Part shown: positions 12,678 to 34,226 of the stretch, piece after piece
Layout of the letters: every line of letters starts with the position of its first letter
Position numbering within the stretch: position 1 is the first letter of the stretch
Assembly: GCA_029932915.1 (NCBI GenBank)
Contig: JAOZPE010000017.1
Span: 12,836 to 59,379 of the forward strand
Length of the DNA stretch: 46,544 nt
Direction: 5' to 3'
Source: Candidatus Krumholzibacteriia bacterium
GTDB taxonomy: Bacteria > Krumholzibacteriota > Krumholzibacteriia > JAJRXK01
Program-made: the position numbers and the translations under genes
The notes under the pieces: model-generated
The model's database searches: none
Seen by the model: only the letters and a program-made list of their open reading frames with translations
Told to the model about the DNA's origin: nothing

Positions 12678-13592
12678 TCAGTCCCTCGCTTCGACGGCAG
12701 CGACGCCCGAGGGAAGATGGCGGACGATCCAGCCCACCAGCTCGTGCACCGAGTTGACCCGGGCGAAGCTGCGTCTCCAGTAGAGGGAGACCAGCCGATG
12801 GGGCACCGGTTCGTCGAAGGGGCGGATCTCCACCGGCGACGCGCCGCCGATCGGGTGCAGGGCCAGCGAAGGCAACAGCGTACAGCCCACCCCCGCTGCC
12901 ACCATGCTGCGCAGGGTCTCCAGGCTGCTGCCGCGCAGGAGTTCCCGGGCCGGGGTGTCGCGGGTACTGCACACCTCCAGGACCTGATCGCGCAGACAGT
13001 GTCCCTCGTCCAGCAGCAGGAGCGGTTCGCCGACGATCGCGGCCAGATCGATGCGTTCACGGCGGGCCAGGGGATGTTCCCTCGGGGCGGCCAGGTGGAA
13101 GTCCTCCCGGTACAGGTCGGCCCGGTCCAGACCGCTCTCGTCCAGGGGCGGGGAGAGCAGCGCGGCGTCCAGCTTCCCCTGATGGAGCTGCTCGATGAGA
13201 ACAGCGGTCTGCTGTTCGATCAGATGCAGTTGCAGGCGGGGATAGGTCTCGTGAAGGGAGGGAACCAGATGGGGCATCAGATAGGGTCCGATGGTCGGAA
13301 TGGCCCCGAGACGGAAGACCCCGCTCAGGGGATCGTCGGGCAGCCGCGCCAGCTCCTCGAGACGGGCCATCTCCTCCAGCACCCGCCGGGCCTGCTCCAC
13401 CACCCGTTCTCCCCGGGCGGTGGGAAAGACCCTTCGCCGGCTCCTCTCGAAGAGCGGCATCCCCAGTTCATCCTCCACCTTCTTCAGGGCGGCCGAGAGG
13501 GAGGGTTGGGAGACATGGCAGGCCGCGGCCGCGCGGCCGAAGTGGGCGTGTTCGGCCAGGGCGACCAGATAGCGGAGTTCCTGGAGGGTCAT
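12678..13592 (-). CDS. oxyR: hydrogen-peroxide-sensing LysR-type regulator OxyR
   Basis: A 304-aa LysR-type regulator: winged HTH at residues 1-60 (LRYLVALAEHAHFGRAAAACHVSQPSLS) and substrate-binding-like domain from about 90. The redox cysteines are C199 and C208 in GHCLRDQVLEVC, the same numbers as in E. coli OxyR, followed by the conserved SLETLRSMVAAGVGCTLLP. OxyR forms the C199-C208 disulfide with peroxide and activates antioxidant genes. It is divergent from dps, a classic OxyR target. No Shine-Dalgarno precedes the ATG; the predicted promoter would start transcription at or next to the A of the ATG, so the mRNA may be leaderless. An OxyR-like half site lies within its promoter spacer, which suggests autoregulation. 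Confidence 0.93.
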   Translation of the reverse strand: MTLQELRYLVALAEHAHFGRAAAACHVSQPSLSAALKKVEDELGMPLFERSRRRVFPTARGERVVEQARRVLEEMARLEELARLPDDPLSGVFRLGAIPTIGPYLMPHLVPSLHETYPRLQLHLIEQQTAVLIEQLHQGKLDAALLSPPLDESGLDRADLYREDFHLAAPREHPLARRERIDLAAIVGEPLLLLDEGHCLRDQVLEVCSTRDTPARELLRGSSLETLRSMVAAGVGCTLLPSLALHPIGGASPVEIRPFDEPVPHRLVSLYWRRSFARVNSVHELVGWIVRHLPSGVAAVEARD

Positions 13593-14252: not shown

Positions 14253-15875
14253 TCAGCTCCGCCGGCGCGATCCCCCCGAACGCGAACGGCGACGGCCACC
14301 GCTGCGTCCCCCGCTCCGGCGGCTGCGTCCTTCGCCTTCACCCTTGCCGGCGGCTTCCTCACCGGCGGCCACCTGACCGCCGTCGTCCTCCTCGTTCGGG
14401 CCGTCGTGGGGCTCGGCCGCCACCGGTGCATGCAGACTCTGCTGATAGTTGTCGTTCAACAACATGGCCACCAGCATCGCCCCGTCCTCGTGCTCGGCCA
14501 GCTCGCGGGCCAGGGGAAGAAATCGCTGGATGCGTTCGCGGTCGATCGGGCGGCGCTCGCGCAGACGCGCCTCCAGAAGAGCCACCAGTCGTTCGGATAC
14601 CACCTTCTCGACCTCCTCATCGTGGGGTGGCTCGAGTTCCTCGAACTCGATGCCGTAACGGGCGCGGATCTCGTCGATGCGCACTTTCTCGGTGCGGAAG
14701 GCCAAGGTGATGGCCTTCCCTCCGGCACCGGCCCGGCCGGTGCGGCCTGCCCGGTGCACGTACAGTTCAGGGTCCTCGGGAACCTCGTACTGGAAGACGT
14801 GACTCAGTTCCTGGATGTCGATGCCGCGCGCGGCCACGTCCGTGGCCACCAGGAAACGCAGGCTTCCCGCTCGCACCCGTCCCAGCACCTTCTCCCGATC
14901 GCGCTGCTTCAGCTCGCTCGACAGGCCGTCGGCGTCGTAGCCGTAGCGCTTGAGGATGAGGGAGACGTAGTTCACCTCGGCCTTCGTGTTGCAGAAGATG
15001 ATGGCCGATGTGGGGTTCTCCAGTTCGATGAGCCGGGCCAGGGTGCGGTCCTTCTGCATATCGGGCACGAAGTACAGGACATGATCGACCTCGGTCACGT
15101 GCACGTGGTCGCGGCTGAGACTGAGCATCTCCGGTTCGTGCAGGAATTCGCCGGCCAGCCGCATGACGTGGTACGGGAAGGTGGCCGAGAACATGTAGCC
15201 GTTGCGCGGCCTGTCGCTCAGGAAACGCTTCACCCGCCGCATGTCCTGGTAGAAACCCATCGACAGCATGCGATCGGCCTCGTCGAAGACCAGCATCTTC
15301 AAGTGGCTCAGGTCGAGATTGCCCTGCATCAGGTGGTCGAGGACACGGCCCGGCGTGCCCACCACCAGATGGGCGCCCTTGCGGAAGGCCTCCAGTTGCT
15401 TGCCGTAGCCGACGCCGCCGTAGACCGCGACGGTCCGGATGCCCTCGGGGGCGAGGACCTCGGCGTGGTCGTAGACCTGCTGGGCCAGTTCGCGCGTGGG
15501 CACCAGGATGAGTCCCTGGCACTGGGGCAGCTCGGGGTCGATGCGATCGAGCATGGGCAAGAGGAAGGCTGCGGTCTTGCCGCTGCCGGTGCGCGACTGG
15601 ATCATCAGGTCGCGGCCGGCCAGCACGTAGGGAAGGGTTCTCGCCTGGACCGGCATCAATTCCTTCCAGCCGGCCCGCCGGCAGGCGGCCTGCATGGTCG
15701 GTGACAGTTCTTCCAGGGTGATCGGGGGAAGGGCATTGTCCGGTTCGACCAGTTCGTCACCCTGGGGGACGCTTCCGTCCGGGGTCTCTTCTTCGTCGTG
15801 CTCTTCGCCGGGAACAATGGGGGAAGGGTGGGATCGGGTCTTGCGCACCCGACGCCTGCGTCTCGCTTCGGTCAA
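14253..15875 (-). CDS. DEAD-box ATP-dependent RNA helicase
   Basis: A 540-aa helicase. RecA-like domain 1 has the Q motif (MPVQARTLP), Walker A SRTGSGKT (K100), PTRELAQQ, TPGR, DEAD (198-201) and SAT (230-232). Domain 2 has IIFCNTK, ATDVAARGIDI and HRAGRTGRAG. The last 60 residues are low complexity: Glu/Gly-rich and then an Arg/Ser/Gly tail (RSRRSGGRSGG), a likely RNA-binding region as in other bacterial DEAD-box proteins. The start is a TTG with GAGGTG nine bases upstream. It is the last gene of a six-gene minus-strand run whose gaps are 15-54 bp. Confidence 0.92.
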   Translation of the reverse strand: MTEARRRRRVRKTRSHPSPIVPGEEHDEEETPDGSVPQGDELVEPDNALPPITLEELSPTMQAACRRAGWKELMPVQARTLPYVLAGRDLMIQSRTGSGKTAAFLLPMLDRIDPELPQCQGLILVPTRELAQQVYDHAEVLAPEGIRTVAVYGGVGYGKQLEAFRKGAHLVVGTPGRVLDHLMQGNLDLSHLKMLVFDEADRMLSMGFYQDMRRVKRFLSDRPRNGYMFSATFPYHVMRLAGEFLHEPEMLSLSRDHVHVTEVDHVLYFVPDMQKDRTLARLIELENPTSAIIFCNTKAEVNYVSLILKRYGYDADGLSSELKQRDREKVLGRVRAGSLRFLVATDVAARGIDIQELSHVFQYEVPEDPELYVHRAGRTGRAGAGGKAITLAFRTEKVRIDEIRARYGIEFEELEPPHDEEVEKVVSERLVALLEARLRERRPIDRERIQRFLPLARELAEHEDGAMLVAMLLNDNYQQSLHAPVAAEPHDGPNEEDDGGQVAAGEEAAGKGEGEGRSRRSGGRSGGRRRSRSGGSRRRS

Positions 15876-15929: not shown

Positions 15930-17006
15930 TCAGAAAGAGTTTCTCTCCTGTTGATCGCGGGGATGGCCGGGGTCCTCCCGGGAATCCTCGAATCCATCCC
16001 CCAACAGGGTAAGGCCGGACAGCCGTCGCCGCCCGGGAAGGGAGGGCCGCGCCCCCAGTCGAGTACAGGCGGCTGCCCCGCACGCCCGTGCGAGGTCGAG
16101 AATCTCGTCGAAGGGCAGGCCCCAGGCAAGGCCGGCGCAATATCCGGCGTGGAAGGCGTCGCCCGCGCCGGTCGTGTCCACCACCGGGGAGACCTCCATC
16201 GCGGGCAGGGCATGCGCCCGGCTATCGTCCCGGCGGGCCCAGACCAACCCTTCCTCCCCGAGGGTCACCACCGCCACCGGAGCCACCCGGCTGAGGGCCT
16301 CCACGGCCGCGCCGGGCTCGCTGCGGCCCGTGAAATCGCGAGCGAAGGTCCACGAAGCCACCAGATGATCGACCCGGCCGGCCAGGAGACGAGTCCCCTC
16401 CCGGACCGAGCCCGCATCGAGGACGGTGACGGTCTCCGCCGCGGGCGAAGCAGAAGGAGCGGGCGGATCCGGGGTGCCCGCCCGCGGCCGGTCCCCGGTG
16501 CCAACCCGGCGGCCCTGCCTCTTGCGCTCGATCTCCTCGAGCACCGCCGCACTCAGGCGCGGCTGGTAGCCGTCGAAGAGCACCACGCGCGCGTTCCAGT
16601 CGACCGTGGCCGGCAAGGTTGGATCGCCCTGGTCGACGGCGGGGGCCCGATGGACGATGCTCCGCCGCCCGTCGGGCTTGACGTAGATCGTCGACACCCG
16701 CATCGGTGCGTCCCCTTCGCTCACCAGCGCGAGATCGACGCCCTCGGAGACGAGTTCGTCACGGTGGGCCCGGCCGAAGGGATCGCGGCTGAGGTAACCG
16801 GCGAAGGCCGAGCTCAGGCCCAGGCGCGCGCAGGCCACCGCCGCATTGGCCGCCGGTCCGCCGCCCCCCACCCACATCTCCCCGGCCTCGACCTTCTCGT
16901 CGTCGGCGGGCTGGTGGTCGAGCCGCAGGGTGATGTCCCATGCGGCGTTGCCCACGCACAGGACGTCCCACGAGCCCGTGCCGCTGTTGTCATCTCGTTT
17001 CATCAC
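15930..17006 (-). CDS. PfkB-family carbohydrate/nucleoside kinase
   Basis: A 358-aa ribokinase-like kinase. The N-terminal PfkB signature appears as VGGGGPAANAAVACARLG and the C-terminal one as VVDTTGAGDAFHAGYCAGLA, with catalytic base D283 in the GAGD anion hole. The first codon is GTG at 17006; the next codon is an ATG at 17003 and either could be used. Residues about 163-192 are a Pro/Ala/Arg-rich insertion (RAGTPDPPAPSASPAA) in the middle of the fold. The frame is intact across it, so it looks like a real linker. The substrate is unknown. It lies 53 bases upstream of the helicase gene in the same operon. Confidence 0.88.
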   Translation of the reverse strand: MMKRDDNSGTGSWDVLCVGNAAWDITLRLDHQPADDEKVEAGEMWVGGGGPAANAAVACARLGLSSAFAGYLSRDPFGRAHRDELVSEGVDLALVSEGDAPMRVSTIYVKPDGRRSIVHRAPAVDQGDPTLPATVDWNARVVLFDGYQPRLSAAVLEEIERKRQGRRVGTGDRPRAGTPDPPAPSASPAAETVTVLDAGSVREGTRLLAGRVDHLVASWTFARDFTGRSEPGAAVEALSRVAPVAVVTLGEEGLVWARRDDSRAHALPAMEVSPVVDTTGAGDAFHAGYCAGLAWGLPFDEILDLARACGAAACTRLGARPSLPGRRRLSGLTLLGDGFEDSREDPGHPRDQQERNSF

Positions 17007-17056: not shown

Positions 17057-18196
17057 TCAGTACAGATCATAGCGGGCCAGGCGCCCGTCGAGGGGACCGT
17101 TGCGCAGGACCCGCTTCCAGCGGGGTCGCAGCCCGACGTTCTTGAGCAGTTCACGATCGCCCACGTAGACGAAGGCGGTCGAGCCGGTGCAGCGCTGCTT
17201 GAGGAAGTCGCCGAAGTCGCGGATCAGGCGCTTCGGATCCTCTCCGGCCAGACGCCGGCCATAGGGAGGGTTGCAGACGATCACCCGGTGGGGCAAGCCC
17301 TCCTTCAACGAGCGGAAGTCGCCGTGCCACCACTCGATGCGATCGGCGTGGGGCAGCAGGGCACAATTGCCTCGGGCGATCTCCAGGTTCCCGGCGGAGA
17401 TGTCACCGCCCCACAACAGCCCCCGCTCGGGTGGCCGGATGCCCCTGTCCGCCTTCTCCCGCACCCGCTTCCACAGCCCCCTATCGAAGTCGGGAAGGTT
17501 CTCCAGGCCGAAACGGCGGCGGAGGTAACCGGCGGGAATCCGCGCTGCCTTCATCAGGGCCTCGGCCACCAGGGTGCCCGATCCGCACATCGGATCGGCC
17601 AGGGGCCGGCTGCCGTCCCACCCGCTCATCTCGAGGATCGCCGCCGCCAGGGTCTCCATCATCGGTGCCTCGACCGAACGGACCCGGTAGCCCCTGCGGT
17701 GCAGGGAGCCGCCCGAGGTGTCCAGGTGCAGGACGGCCCGGTTGCGATGCAGATGAAGGTGCAACCACACATCTGGCGTCTTCGGGTCGACATCGGGGCG
17801 CGAGCCCGTCTTCTCCCGCAGGTGATCGACGGCGGCGTCCTTGACCACCCGCGCCGCGTACTGGCTGTGCCGCACGCGGCTGTCGCTCACGTTGGCGGTG
17901 ACCGCGAAGGTGCGGCCGGGGCGCAGGATCGAGCCCCAATCGAGCTGTCGCAGGGTCTTGTACAGATAGCGCGAGCTGTGGCAGTCGAAGCTGATCAGCG
18001 GGGCCAGGACACGGCTCACCAGGCGCGCGCGGTAGTTGATGCGGTACAGTGCCTGCGCGTCGGCCGTGAAATAGGCACCCCGGTACACGGGCCGCACCGC
18101 ACTCGCGCCGAGCTTCTCCAATTCCCCGCCGGCGAGTTCGGCGAGGCCATCGGCGAACTGCGCGAAGAAGCGATGGGATTTCTGGTATTCGAACAT
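17057..18196 (-). CDS. THUMP-domain class I RNA methyltransferase (RlmL-type)
   Basis: A 379-aa SAM-dependent methyltransferase of the COG0116 type. The N-terminal third (FFAQFADGLAELAGGELEKLGA) is the ferredoxin-like/THUMP RNA-binding part. The catalytic domain has DPMCGSGTLVAEAL (motif I/X region) and the N-type motif VIVCNPPYGRRL. Relatives such as RlmL methylate guanine in 23S rRNA; the target here is not determined. The ATG at 18196 opens MFEYQKSHRFFAQ, the normal family N-terminus. Length matches stand-alone YpsC/RlmL-N type enzymes, without the RlmK half. Confidence 0.88.
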   Translation of the reverse strand: MFEYQKSHRFFAQFADGLAELAGGELEKLGASAVRPVYRGAYFTADAQALYRINYRARLVSRVLAPLISFDCHSSRYLYKTLRQLDWGSILRPGRTFAVTANVSDSRVRHSQYAARVVKDAAVDHLREKTGSRPDVDPKTPDVWLHLHLHRNRAVLHLDTSGGSLHRRGYRVRSVEAPMMETLAAAILEMSGWDGSRPLADPMCGSGTLVAEALMKAARIPAGYLRRRFGLENLPDFDRGLWKRVREKADRGIRPPERGLLWGGDISAGNLEIARGNCALLPHADRIEWWHGDFRSLKEGLPHRVIVCNPPYGRRLAGEDPKRLIRDFGDFLKQRCTGSTAFVYVGDRELLKNVGLRPRWKRVLRNGPLDGRLARYDLY

Positions 18197-18237: not shown

Positions 18238-19032
18238 TCACCCATCCAGCCGCAGGTGCATCTCTCCGCGGATGACGTCGACCGCGTGGCCGCCGATGTG
18301 CACCCGTTTGCCGTGGATCTCCCCGACGATGGTCCCGCCGCGGCGGGAGAGTTGACGCGCGTGCAGGCGTTCCTTCCCCAGCTTCTCCCCCCAGTAGGGA
18401 AGCAGACTGCAGAAGACCGAACCGGTGACCGCGTCCTCGGGCACCCCGATCTTGGGCGCGAAGAAGCGGCACACGAAGTCACAGTCGTCGCCGACGGCGG
18501 TGGGGCACACCCCGACGACATCGAGCTTCTTGAGCAGTTCGAAATCCGGACGCAGCGAGCGCACCTGCTCCTCGCTCTCCAGCAGGACGATGAGGTCGCG
18601 GGCCCGGCCACACCAGAGCGGTTCGACCCCCAGGGCCTTCTTCAGGATCGGATCGATGGGCACTTCCTTCAGCGGGCGCATGGGAAAGTCCAACCAGTGC
18701 CGTCCATCGTGGCGCAGCACCCGAAGCGTCCCGCTGCGCGGGCTCTCGAACACGACCTCACGCCCCTGGGCCAGACCCTCCAGGAAGAGGGCGAACGCGG
18801 CGGCAAGGGTTCCGTGTCCGCACAGGTCGACCTCGACCTCGGGAGTGAACCACCGCAGCTCCCAATCGTCCCCTCGGGGAACCACGAAAGCGGTCTCCGG
18901 AAGGTTGTTCTCCGCCGCGATCGACTGGAGGATCTCATCGGGCAGCCAGTCCTCCAACAGGACCACGGCGGCCTGGTTGCCCTCGAAGGGGCGGTCGGCG
19001 AAGGAATCGACCTGATGGAACGGCAGTTTCAT
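18238..19032 (-). CDS. PhzF-family isomerase/epimerase-like protein
   Basis: A 264-aa PhzF-like protein of normal length. The conserved acid is E46 in NNLPETAFV; the family blocks VDSFADRPFEGNQAAVV at the N-terminus, DLCGHGTLAAA and GVPEDAVTGS are present. PhzF isomerises DHHA in phenazine synthesis, but most homologues outside phenazine operons have unknown substrates, and no phenazine genes are here. It lies 15 bases after the DUF2007 gene and 41 bases before the RNA methyltransferase gene. Confidence 0.9.
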   Translation of the reverse strand: MKLPFHQVDSFADRPFEGNQAAVVLLEDWLPDEILQSIAAENNLPETAFVVPRGDDWELRWFTPEVEVDLCGHGTLAAAFALFLEGLAQGREVVFESPRSGTLRVLRHDGRHWLDFPMRPLKEVPIDPILKKALGVEPLWCGRARDLIVLLESEEQVRSLRPDFELLKKLDVVGVCPTAVGDDCDFVCRFFAPKIGVPEDAVTGSVFCSLLPYWGEKLGKERLHARQLSRRGGTIVGEIHGKRVHIGGHAVDVIRGEMHLRLDG

Positions 19033-19047
19033 CCGCGACTTCTCTCC

Positions 19048-19290
19048 TCAATCGCCGTCGGCATCGGAGGCAGGACCGTCTTCCACCGATTGGAGCAGAC
19101 CCTTGGCGTCGTCGGCGAAGGCCGGCGGCACCATGAGCCGGATACCCTCGCCCAGATTCATCTGGGGTTCCATGCCTCCGACATCGTCGTACACGAGAAT
19201 GCAGGGAATACCGTTGGCCGAGAGCAGGCCCTTGGCCACCTCGGCCTCGGAAACATCCGTGAACCGGGCGACTTCCACTTCCTTGTCCAT
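19048..19290 (-). CDS. DUF2007-type small protein
   Basis: An 80-aa protein starting MDKEVEVARFTDVSEAEVAKGLLSANGIP. The order EVARF.D..EAE.AKGLL.ANGIP....DD followed by a hydrophobic strand (IRLMVPPAFADDAKGLL) is the fold pattern of DUF2007, a ferredoxin-like domain called a putative signal-transducing domain and seen alone in many bacteria. The C-terminus is acidic (SVEDGPASDADGD). No catalytic residues are evident. It sits second in the operon behind the selenoprotein gene. Confidence 0.75.
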   Translation of the reverse strand: MDKEVEVARFTDVSEAEVAKGLLSANGIPCILVYDDVGGMEPQMNLGEGIRLMVPPAFADDAKGLLQSVEDGPASDADGD

Positions 19291-19339
19291 CGTGGTCTCC
19301 TGACTTGATCCATGGAGCCGAAGGCCCGGATGCCGGCGA

Positions 19340-19567
19340 TCAGCTCGTCCGGGCCTTGATGATCTCGACGATCTCGTTCTCCTCGGGAAAGCGACCGAGC
19401 TCGTGCTTGGAGAAGATCATCTCATCGTCGAGTCTGACGTCGAAGACGCCATTTCGGCCCGGTATGAGTTCGGGCGTGAGAGCGAAGTTCTTCTGGAGTT
19501 TCTCCACCAACCTGGCGGCGTGAGGAAGATAGTTTCACTGGACGCAGTATTCGATGCTGACCTTCAA
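19340..19567 (-). CDS. SelW/Rdx-family selenoprotein with in-frame UGA (CxxU)
   Basis: A 75-aa protein read through a TGA at 19535-19537. Before it the frame reads MKVSIEYCVQ and after it NYLPHAARLVEKLQKNFALT, then IPGRNGVFDVRLDDEMIFSK, HELGRFPEEN and a short helix. This is the SelW/SelT/SelH (Rdx) thioredoxin-like pattern: beta strand, YCxxC/U, helix with LVxxL, G.FDV...D...FS....GRFPE. The TGA falls exactly where the second redox Cys belongs, giving C8-V-Q-U11. The start is TTG at 19567 with GAGG seven bases upstream. The reading ends at a second TGA at 19340-19342. A SECIS-like hairpin follows the first TGA at the right distance. It is first in the operon. The selA/B/C/D genes are not in the window. 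Confidence 0.78.
19504..19518 (-). promoter_or_regulatory. SECIS-like hairpin for selenocysteine insertion
   Basis: In the mRNA, positions 20-34 counted from the U of the UGA form a five-pair stem (CCGCC with GGUGG, one G-U pair) closed by a 5-nt loop AGGUU. The loop begins 21 nt after the UGA and has a G within its first two bases. This fits the bacterial SECIS model as I recall it (small loop, G near its 5' side, about 16-37 nt after UGA). An extra C-G pair extends the stem past one mismatch. Confidence 0.55.
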
Positions 19568-19596
19568 GGGCCCACCTCGCCATGAAAAGGGGGAAA

Positions 19597-19614
19597 GCGG
19601 CCCGGCGGGGCCGC
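19597..19614. other. GC-rich hairpin upstream of the selenoprotein operon
   Basis: GCGGCCC-GGCG-GGGCCGC is a perfect 7-bp stem. On the minus strand it is followed by TTTCCCCCTTTTC and then the start of the selenoprotein gene, so it could be an attenuator or terminator in the operon leader. The rest of the 292-bp stretch 19568-19859 shows no gene on either strand; no tRNA-Sec is seen in it. Confidence 0.35.
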
Positions 19615-19859
19615 CGTCGCCGCACAGGATAAGGCCACCGAAGACGGGCGGAAAGGGTGAAAGTCCCGGCGGCGGCGGAGGCCACCGTGACGGGCCCGAC
19701 GAGCGGGGCCTTCCATCCCGCCGTCCTCTTCCAGCCAGAACTGGACGTTCGGGCCGAAAGTGTGGACATTCAAGGCAGGGCGCCGGCCCACCCCCCACGC
19801 GGTGAGGCCGGGACGGCGTCACCGGAAGAGCTGTTCTCCCCCGTCCACGGCCCGTATCC

Positions 19860-30055: not shown

Positions 30056-33000
30056 TCACTTCACCAGGACCATCTTGCGCTGGCCCATGATCTCGCCGTC
30101 GACAGCGAGGCGATAGAGATACACTCCGGCGGCCACTTCTCCGCCGTCGGCGTCACGTCCGTCCCAGACGGCCTTCTGCGGTCCCGGGGGAAGCTGAGCC
30201 TCGACAAGGGTCTTGATCCTGCGGCCCCGGACATCGAAGACCTCGAGCGTCGTCTTGCCCCCGAGGGGAAGATCGTAACGGATCTCGGTGCGGGGATTGA
30301 ACGGATTGGGGAAGTTCTGGGCGAGCAGCGGAGCGATGGCAACCGGTGTGGACGGCACATCCGTCGCCAGCAACTTCGTCGCGTCGCCTCCATTGTGGAA
30401 ATGCACGGCCACGAGGGAACTCAACTCGTCGGTGATGGCCATGTCCTGCTGTCCGTCCCCGGTGATGTCCCCGAAGGTGACATCGCTGGCAAGCTCGGCG
30501 CTCACGTACAGGAAGGGATCATCGAAGGTTCCATCGCCATGTCCGTGGCGGATGCTGGCTCCGCCCCACGCGGAAACCACCGTCACCAGATCGAGGGGGC
30601 CGTCGCCGTTGACATCGGTGAGGTAGACGCGCCGGGCGGCGAGCGAGAAGCCCGAGACGGCCGGACCGACGGTCAGGGCCGGCCCGAGCAGGAAGCTCCC
30701 ATCGCCATTGCCGAAGTAGATCACCACGTCTTCCTGGCTCTCCCGGAGGATCGCCAGATCCGGCCGACCGTCGCTGTTCACATCACCCGCGCTGACCGCG
30801 ATGGGATGTCCCTCGACGAGGAAGACCTCGGAGACCGGCGCGTCGGTGTCGACGAAGATCTCGTTGGGATCGTTCAGCAGCACGTTGACCTCGTCGCTCT
30901 CACTGTTGACGACCACCAGGTCGATTCCACCATCGCCGTCGAAGTCGGCCGCGGCCATCTTGCCTGGACCCGGGATGCCGCCCTGTCCACCCTTGTAGAG
31001 CAGGGCCAGACCGGCGTCATCACCATCGGTGCCGTCCCTGGATGCCCCGACCACCCAGTCGTCGAAACCATCGCCGTTGACATCTCCATCGCCGGCCAGT
31101 GCTCCGCCGAATTCGGCCTGATCCACGTTCCGGGTGGCGATGACCACCGCGTCATCGGTGGGAAGCGAGCCGCCCCGGATGAGGTACACCCTTCCCTTCT
31201 GGGTCGCGGTGGGGTCGATGCTGTTCACCTGGACATAGCCAGGAGCGGAGACGACGAAATCATCGAAGCCCTGCCCCGTCGGATCGCCGGCCGGCGCGAT
31301 GGCCGTACCCAGGCGCGCATCCGCGCGGCGTCCACTGACGGTGAAGTCCGGCGAGTTGTCGAAGGAAGGACCTCCGAAGTAGAGGTTGACCTGTCCACGG
31401 TCCAGGCTCGACTCGGTGTCGTAGAAGGGCGCGCCAACTCCGATGTCGGCCGCGCCGTCGCCGTTGAAATCGCCGACGCCGGCCACGGAGTATCCCAGTT
31501 GCGCCGACTTGACCTCGCCGTCGGCGACCATCACCGGGGTCGTGGTCATCGCCCCACCGGCATAGACGTAGACACGCCCCACGGCCGGTTCCTCTTCGCT
31601 CAGCTCATGGCCGGGAGCACCCACCACCAGGTCACCCACACCGTCCCCGGTGAAATCCCCCGCCATGGCCGCCGCATGGCCGAAGTAGTCCTCTGCGGCC
31701 TCGCCTTCGAGCACGAGGTCTTCGCCGGCATCGAGCCCACCCCCCCAGAACAGGTAGAGCCGTCCGCTGTTGGAACCGACGCCGTCGTAGGCCGGCGAGC
31801 CGACCACCCAGTCGTCCAGGCCGTCCCCGTTGAGATCCTGGCCGGAGGCGATGACCGCACCGAATGCCTCTCCCGCCTGACTACCCTGCCGCACCAGGTC
31901 GGCACTGCCGTCCTGGTTTCCCAGGAAGACGTAGACCGCGCCGCCGTCCTCAGCCAAAGCGTCGTTGCCGGGAGCCCCCACGAGGATGTCGTCGGAGCCG
32001 TCGTGGTCGAGATCGCCGAACGCGACCGCCGCCCCGAAGCGCTCGCCCGCCTGCTGTCCGGTCAACACCATGGCCGGCGTCTCCGAGGGCGTCGCCGATC
32101 CGAGATAGAGACGAACCGTGTCGTCCCCGGGCGATCCGACGAGCACATCGGAGAAACCGTCGCCGTTGACGTCGCCCATGGCCACCGCGGCGCCGGTCTC
32201 CGCGCCCTCGCCCGGAGACAGGTAGTACAGATCGGCATCACCGTTGACGTCGCTCGGGCCCACCGCGATGGAGATGGGGGCCTTGAAGCTGGCCGGGATG
32301 ATCGACTCGAGGCGATTGATCCGGAAGAAGTCGAGGCGACCGGTCGCGGCGCTGTAGCTCATGAGGTCGTCGACCCCGTCCCGATCGAAGTCGCCGCTGA
32401 CGACATCGGTCGGATCCTCATGGACCGAGAGACGAACCTCTCCCTTGAGCAGGGACTCCTCGCTCGGATCGGCCTGGAAGATCGACAACAGGTTGGTCGC
32501 CGAGTTCACCGTCACCACCTCGGGGAGATCGTCGGTGGTGAGGCCGGCGGTGATCATCGCCTCCGGTTCACGTCCGGTTCTCTGCTGCTCCGGCGCCGAA
32601 CTGAACCAGGGGAAATCGGCCACCCCCTTGCGGACGAGGATGGTACCGCTGCCGGTATTCATGGTGATGAGGTCGAGCAGGTCATCTCCGTTGAGATCGT
32701 CGAGCAACACCCTCAACGGACCCGACCCGGCATCCATGCGCGCCGGTTGGAAGAATGTGCTGGGCGCGCCGCCGATACCGGCTCCGTTGAGGACCATGAA
32801 GCCGTGGCTCCAGTACGAGGTGACGATGAGATCGGGATACCCGTCCCCGTCCACCTGAGCACTCGTGACGCCCATGGGACGGTAACCGCCGTAGTAGAGA
32901 CGCTCGGCCTGGAAGGTCCCCAGGTAGCTTCCCTGACGCACGCCCACCTGGTCGATGTCCTCGAGGGTGTAGACGAGGTCGGGCCGACCGTCGACGTTGA

Positions 33001-33958
33001 AGTCGCCGAACATCACCGAGCGCGGATTTCCCTCGGTGCTGATCGCTTCGACCGGCTCGAAGAGCTCTCCACGTTCCGTCGCCTCCGAGCTGGTCAACAG
33101 GAGACCGATGGTGTCGTCGTAGTAGTTCGCCACTGCGATATCGTCGATACCGTCCTCCACCGCGCCGACTGCGCCCGCCACAGGGCGGCTTCCCGCGTCG
33201 ATGAAGCCGTGGAAGGTGAGCGTCCCATCGGCCGCCCCGAGGTACACAGCCACATCGTCCGACAGGAAATCGACGATCGCGAGATCCTTGAAACCGTCGG
33301 CGTCGAAGTCACCGGTGACCATGTCGATGGGCCGGTTGCCCGCGTCGATCACCACGTTCGAGGCGAATCCCCCGCTGCCGTCGCCGTAGAAGATGCTGAC
33401 GTTGTCCGACCAGTAGTTCGCCACCGCGATGTCATCGTTGCCGTCGCCGTCGAGGTCCTCGAAGATCGCCGCCACCGGATAGTCCCAGACACCCGGGGTC
33501 GCGCCGGCATAGAAGGTGCCGTCGGGTGTCCCGCCGGGCGTCATGGCGATCCATACCGAGAAGCGGTTGAGTGCGCCCTCGGTCACCACCAGGTCGAGCG
33601 CCCCGTCGTTGTTCAGATCGCCGGCAGCGATATCCCACGGTTCCTCACCGACCACGAAACTCGATGCCAATCGGAAACTTCCGTCGCCCACTCCGGAGAC
33701 CGTATTGGCCAGGAAGACGGTGACGGTGTGTGCCGAGAAGCTCGTCACCGCCAGGTCCATGACGCCGTCGGCGTTGAAATCGCCCTTGGCGACGGCGGTG
33801 GGATGGGGATCGGTGGGTTGGAGCAGCCCCGGGTAGTCCGAGCCGGCCAGGGCAGCAGCCGGGATTGCCAGAACCATCGAAAGAAGCAGGAGTGACGGCC
33901 GCAGCGCGCGTCGGCTCAGCGCTGTCAACCAGGTCTCCTCACCGTGACTCGCAAACAT
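30056..33958 (-). CDS. secreted FG-GAP/VCBS-repeat protein with C-terminal sorting domain
   Basis: A 1300-aa exported protein. A signal peptide spans about residues 18-40 (LRPSLLLLSMVLAIPAAALA). The body consists of VCBS/FG-GAP repeats with Ca2+-binding loops of the form DxNxDGxxDLxV (GDFNADGVMDLAV, GDLNNDGALDLVV, GDVNGDGFSDVLVG, GDFNGDGAADIGVG); the middle part resembles integrin-alpha propeller blades. The last 90 residues are a type-A sorting/FlgD-like domain: NFPNPFNPRTEIRYDLP ... GVYLYRLAVDG ... KMVLVK. The ATG at 33958 has GGAGG upstream. It heads a probable three-gene operon of surface proteins. Ligand binding or adhesion is inferred from the fold. Confidence 0.88.
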   Translation of the reverse strand: MFASHGEETWLTALSRRALRPSLLLLSMVLAIPAAALAGSDYPGLLQPTDPHPTAVAKGDFNADGVMDLAVTSFSAHTVTVFLANTVSGVGDGSFRLASSFVVGEEPWDIAAGDLNNDGALDLVVTEGALNRFSVWIAMTPGGTPDGTFYAGATPGVWDYPVAAIFEDLDGDGNDDIAVANYWSDNVSIFYGDGSGGFASNVVIDAGNRPIDMVTGDFDADGFKDLAIVDFLSDDVAVYLGAADGTLTFHGFIDAGSRPVAGAVGAVEDGIDDIAVANYYDDTIGLLLTSSEATERGELFEPVEAISTEGNPRSVMFGDFNVDGRPDLVYTLEDIDQVGVRQGSYLGTFQAERLYYGGYRPMGVTSAQVDGDGYPDLIVTSYWSHGFMVLNGAGIGGAPSTFFQPARMDAGSGPLRVLLDDLNGDDLLDLITMNTGSGTILVRKGVADFPWFSSAPEQQRTGREPEAMITAGLTTDDLPEVVTVNSATNLLSIFQADPSEESLLKGEVRLSVHEDPTDVVSGDFDRDGVDDLMSYSAATGRLDFFRINRLESIIPASFKAPISIAVGPSDVNGDADLYYLSPGEGAETGAAVAMGDVNGDGFSDVLVGSPGDDTVRLYLGSATPSETPAMVLTGQQAGERFGAAVAFGDLDHDGSDDILVGAPGNDALAEDGGAVYVFLGNQDGSADLVRQGSQAGEAFGAVIASGQDLNGDGLDDWVVGSPAYDGVGSNSGRLYLFWGGGLDAGEDLVLEGEAAEDYFGHAAAMAGDFTGDGVGDLVVGAPGHELSEEEPAVGRVYVYAGGAMTTTPVMVADGEVKSAQLGYSVAGVGDFNGDGAADIGVGAPFYDTESSLDRGQVNLYFGGPSFDNSPDFTVSGRRADARLGTAIAPAGDPTGQGFDDFVVSAPGYVQVNSIDPTATQKGRVYLIRGGSLPTDDAVVIATRNVDQAEFGGALAGDGDVNGDGFDDWVVGASRDGTDGDDAGLALLYKGGQGGIPGPGKMAAADFDGDGGIDLVVVNSESDEVNVLLNDPNEIFVDTDAPVSEVFLVEGHPIAVSAGDVNSDGRPDLAILRESQEDVVIYFGNGDGSFLLGPALTVGPAVSGFSLAARRVYLTDVNGDGPLDLVTVVSAWGGASIRHGHGDGTFDDPFLYVSAELASDVTFGDITGDGQQDMAITDELSSLVAVHFHNGGDATKLLATDVPSTPVAIAPLLAQNFPNPFNPRTEIRYDLPLGGKTTLEVFDVRGRRIKTLVEAQLPPGPQKAVWDGRDADGGEVAAGVYLYRLAVDGEIMGQRKMVLVK

Positions 33959-34226
33959 TCTTGCCTCCGAGGCGATCGAGGGCGGGTCTTGATCGCGGGA
34001 TCTGCGTCGTGTGGAAAAGACGAACGAGATGCGATTCGCTGCGGACCATGAAGCACGCCGTCGCAAGGAACGACGTCCTGGCGGGGTTCACCGGTCCCGT
34101 GGCGGTGTCCAAAGGTACACCATCGCATCGCAGGTCTCAACTTGCCAAAGATACGGAACGGGCGGCCGTGGGGAAAAGGCGGAACGCCGAAAAAGGGGCG
34201 CGAAGGCGAATCGGGACGTCTGCCCC

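Follow-up and report, generated by a model that had tools for sequence, protein, structure and literature searches.

Does the TGA that interrupts a short minus-strand frame in the window (the whole stretch of 46,544 nucleotides analysed here) end translation, or is it read as selenocysteine (Sec)? The frame (19340..19567, minus strand) starts with TTG at 19567, reaches the UGA at 19537-19535 as codon 11 in the motif C8-V-Q-U11, and continues unbroken for 64 more codons up to the stop TGA at 19342-19340. Its 5' end reads TTG AAG GTC AGC ATC GAA TAC TGC GTC CAG TGA AAC TAT CTT CCT, and the read-through product has 75 residues, of which the eleventh is Sec: LKVSIEYCVQUNYLPHAARLVEKLQKNFALTPELIPGRNGVFDVRLDDEMIFSKHELGRFPEENEIVEIIKARTS. 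In the alignment, the TTG start lined up with the ATG/GTG starts of relatives, and a Shine-Dalgarno-like GAGGTG (19573..19578, minus strand) was found 5 nt upstream. The frame, coordinates, and residues given in a preliminary description of this locus all agreed with our re-reading of the minus strand.

The read-through product matched three family profiles over nearly its full length: PF10262 (Rdx; 75 bits, curated cut-off of 22.6), TIGR02174 (CXXU_selWTH; 63.7 bits, cut-off of 34.2), and NF041051 (SelTWH_Campy; 93.6 bits, cut-off of 88). These scores, all above the curated cut-offs, bear out the earlier naming of a SelW/Rdx-like protein and, together with orthologues, identify a selW-like gene of the Rdx family. 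The CxxU motif is N-terminal, and the U/C column was invariant in the alignment. Solved Rdx structures, which have Cys opposite U11, also matched (the best was PDB 3dex; E=2e-12), suggesting a thioredoxin-like fold. A tblastn search of plasmids with the protein yielded only homologues with less than 60% identity. Prokaryotic SelW-like (SELENOW-like) selenoproteins (PF10262/TIGR02174) have the same length, Rdx domain, and CxxU motif with Sec at the second position, and carry a SECIS in the coding region directly after the UGA, as here; the window gene differs from them in its TTG start and AGGUU loop (GGUCU in most of the relatives fetched), and otherwise showed no substantial difference. Rdx proteins with Cys (PDB 3dex SAV_2001, 2fa8 Atu0228, 2oka, and 2obk) share the domain, with CxxC in place of CxxU. 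Three Cys-form loci (L054-L056) were 39-44% identical to the window protein; they carry three additional residues past the first helix and extend further at the C-terminus.

The genome itself (2.92 Mb in 98 contigs; 98% complete, 4% contamination) contains the machinery for Sec: a tRNA-Sec gene (selC; 72.4 bits, above the Rfam cut-off, and called tRNA-SeC with anticodon TCA by ARAGORN), selB (356 bits, cut-off of 242), selA (446 bits, cut-off of 268), and two selD genes above the cut-off. One of the latter (L017, C8:64939-65871) is the second selenoprotein gene of the genome, in which a TGA lies in frame at the catalytic Sec/Cys position of SelD (QHAGAAG-U-AAK), followed 20 nt past it by a SECIS-like hairpin, the loop of which (GGA) begins with G. 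In a 739-residue frame (L016:1396-3615, minus strand; C5:44687-48613), a NifS-like cysteine desulfurase (MRPIYLDYNATTPIAPE..., recognized by eye) is joined to a Cys-form SelD; NifS-SelD fusions have been reported as rare, with two prokaryotic instances (PMC4561486). No match above the cut-off was detected in the genome for the formate dehydrogenase alpha subunit, a usual Sec protein. Since nearly all genomes of the class carry selA, with or without SelW, co-occurrence of selA with SelW is not discriminating. A selA match was absent in three of the 52 SelW-bearing genomes (G040, G058, and G109), probably because these are incomplete drafts (86-92% complete).

The genes downstream of the SelW-like gene raise the possibility that the selenoprotein also belongs to a functional unit with an RNA methyltransferase and a helicase, as a dedicated redox/RNA-modification operon. 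On the minus strand, the gene is followed after a 49-nt gap by a gene for a DUF2007 protein of 80 residues (19048..19290; PF09413, 34.5 bits) and, 15 nt further on, by one for a PhzF-family isomerase (18238..19032). Family matches then identified a THUMP/RlmL-Trm14-like RNA (guanine-N2) methyltransferase (17057..18196), the start of which was taken as the ATG at 18196 because the first ~100 residues of the 471-residue ORF lie ahead of the homologous part, and a PfkB-family sugar kinase (15930..17006); a CshA/DbpA-like DEAD-box RNA helicase (14253..15875) scored below the equivalog cut-offs. The six genes that the preliminary description called an operon are co-directional, with gaps of about 15-55 nt wherever the start codon is clear; its RNA-modifying enzymes and helicase amount to two of the six, one methyltransferase and one DEAD helicase. 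An OxyR-like LysR regulator lies slightly further downstream, which also speaks for such a unit. On the other hand, these neighbours were not found next to the SelW-like gene in any of the relatives fetched (flanks of ~1.5 kb for most; as much as 6 kb for seven named loci). The linkage therefore looks local, and the setting says little about function, so that the operon setting earlier described as unusual carries little weight, also for a family known for so long. A functional unit of this kind is unlikely, and the fuller version, in which Sec-SelW is co-transcribed and works with the methyltransferase/helicase genes and the OxyR-like regulator as a redox-responsive, lineage-particular RNA-modification operon, is only about half as probable as that. 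The regulator (12678-13592, minus strand; about 660 nt downstream of the helicase gene) has the redox cysteine motif GHCLRDQVLEVC and scored 281 bits for OxyR, below the cut-off of 329. Elsewhere in the window, a 1336-residue ORF (30056-34066, minus strand) contains eleven FG-GAP repeats and a C-terminal domain resembling FlgD Ig-like/Por secretion-tail domains.

We next consider whether the gene is a decayed Rdx pseudogene, in which the UGA is a true stop: an in-frame stop is the typical look of a pseudogene, and the hairpin of the window is unexceptional when taken singly (see below). The comparison of relatives covered 118 genomes, counting the own genome; 79 of these belong to the same class or closer, in addition to the own genome. 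The SelW-like gene was found in 52 of the 118 (own included), and codon 11 was TGA in all 52 (50 by pattern, and L070 and L078 by eye); a weak second match in G004 (L079) falls outside this reading of codon 11. A scan of GTDB genomes added four Sec forms, in MAGs labelled Phycisphaerae, Myxococcales, Deltaproteobacteria, and Halieaceae, and three more distant Cys forms, one in a Methylophilaceae MAG and two in actinobacteria. In the alignment, U and Cys share one column. The UGA codon (19535..19537, minus strand), predicted to be read as Sec, thus stands where distant homologues have Cys, and the earlier placement of it at the second Cys of the Rdx CxxC motif holds, with U or Cys in homologues exactly there. 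Of nine close pairs, eight had dN/dS ratios of 0.11-0.43 3' of the UGA, and one very close pair with very few changes (L069/L072) had a ratio near 1; between the window gene and L050, the ratio was 0.22. Comparisons of the window gene with L021 and L022 were left out, since a one-codon length difference put them out of register. Close pairs are thus mostly under purifying selection after the UGA. A UGA at the identical codon in 56 genomes across lineages, a conserved downstream sequence, mostly under purifying selection and with the frame intact to the next stop, and full Sec machinery in the own genome all stand against decay; the conservation across relatives therefore excludes the pseudogene reading, to which we assign only a minimal probability. 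The preliminary description had named selA, selB, selC, and selD in the assembly, conservation past the UGA, and Cys homologues at U11 as things to look for: all four genes are present, conservation was found (mostly purifying in close pairs), and Cys homologues comprise the three named above and the PDB relatives.

A predicted bacterial SECIS hairpin (19504..19518, minus strand) follows the UGA. The five-pair stem with an AGGUU loop noted earlier was present at 19518-19504: the hairpin CCGCC/AGGTT/GGTGG (stem CCGCC/GGUGG) starts 16 nt past the UGA, and its apical loop (19513-19509) begins 21 nt past it. Across 54 pattern-aligned Sec sequences, the hairpin keeps a constant distance from the UGA, its pairs joining offsets 18-23 to 29-34 (counted from the U of UGA). 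At least four of the six pairs were formed in 52 of the 54, and L034 has a comparable hairpin with its register shifted by one base. The second loop base was G in all 54; the loops were GGTCT (32), AGTTT (10), AGTCT (6), and six others, against AGGTT in the window. The commonest, GGUCU, resembles the loop of the E. coli fdhF SECIS.

Among 32 sequences, 87% of the hairpin pairs were formed (78.5% when columns were shuffled); the covariation score was 0.270, compared with 0.091 when shuffled and at most 0.101 in slid registers; at the column pair 21/33, CG, UA, GC, and UG were all seen. Since the hairpin is itself part of the coding sequence, synonymous codons were resampled as the null: 167 of 192 hairpin pairs were observed, against 130.6 +/- 4.1 expected (maximum of 145 in 1000), while neighbouring registers were at the null level. 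Relatedness among the sequences inflates the significance in both the covariation and codon-resampling tests, which therefore overstate it; yet other registers carry equal relatedness and stay at expectation. The hairpin thus keeps its register and shows compensatory changes and a loop that hardly varies, to a degree beyond the constraint of the protein sequence.

From the window sequence alone the evidence is weak, although as a family feature the hairpin is above chance. Comparable hairpins at <= -7.5 kcal/mol follow 98 of the 1100 TGAs in the window (9%), which is 66% GC. The window hairpin has a folding energy of -6.7 kcal/mol by itself and of -7.6 to -8.0 kcal/mol once flanking bases are included. 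Within a 48-nt stretch, alternative folds were equally stable, and the probability of the conserved pairs was about 0.17; when offsets 16-37 alone were folded (from the U of UGA), which may mimic a ribosome sitting at the UGA, it was 0.99. Taken singly, neither the window sequence (p about 0.12) nor most relatives had a minimum free energy (MFE) significantly different from the synonymous-codon nulls; in contrast to these, only the fixed-register test across all sequences was significant. RNAalifold alone gave a weak consensus; more was learned from counting pairs in the named structure. An Rfam scan of 19200-19750 returned chance matches only, without a SECIS family match. The published bacterial SECIS model has a 3-9 nt loop whose first two positions include G, mostly N1-G-[G/U]-N-N2, a stem of 4-16 bp, a spacing of 16-37 nt, and an MFE <= -7.5 (PMC13188914); the loop length, position of G, 5-bp stem, and 21-nt spacing of the window hairpin fit this model, and its energy is borderline.

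Genome-wide reassignment of UGA to Trp or Gly (code 4 or 25), which would also explain read-through in the SelW-like gene, has a negligible probability and is excluded, since all twelve window ORFs checked, including genes with family matches and the SelW-like gene itself, end in TGA and homologues have Cys, neither Trp nor Gly, at the aligned position; the SECIS is also conserved.

We are therefore nearly certain that 19340-19567 (minus strand) is a bona fide bacterial SelW/Rdx selenoprotein gene with its UGA read as Sec, and on sequence grounds the in-frame UGA is very probably decoded as selenocysteine. SelB carrying Sec-tRNA would bind the SECIS hairpin, with the apical loop starting 21 nt past the UGA, and the ribosome would place Sec at codon 11 rather than terminating; the resulting protein would have 75 residues and carry a CxxU redox motif close to the N-terminus. 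Sequence comparison points to Sec insertion itself and to a putative role for the protein as a small thiol/selenol oxidoreductase, perhaps one linked to glutathione, as reported for SelW (PMC1088965).

SelW-like CxxU proteins are a long-known family of bacterial selenoproteins (PMC1088965, PMC1794560, PMC2398784, PMC13188914). A survey of bacterial genomes in 2006 assigned 10 selenoproteins to it and observed that organisms using Sec have very few, if any, Cys homologues (PMC1794560); it is the largest selenoprotein family in the GOS table (427; PMC2398784), and a 2026 review grades it as "predicted with high confidence" (PF10262, CxxU; PMC13188914). The window gene is a further member of this established family, whose bacterial members have been known since the mid-2000s. 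In the class of the host, only the Sec form seems to occur (52 of the 52 genomes that carry the gene); this agrees with published work that takes Sec to be the original state of bacterial SelW-like proteins (PMC1794560). An out-of-frame ORF of 115 residues without a Pfam match overlies the gene (19422-19769, minus strand), and stop-based annotation may call this ORF instead. The significance of the finding is mainly one of annotation: gene finders that take UGA as a stop lose the SelW-like gene, as the preliminary description had warned, or shorten it. The covarying hairpin also provides a clean set of SECIS examples.
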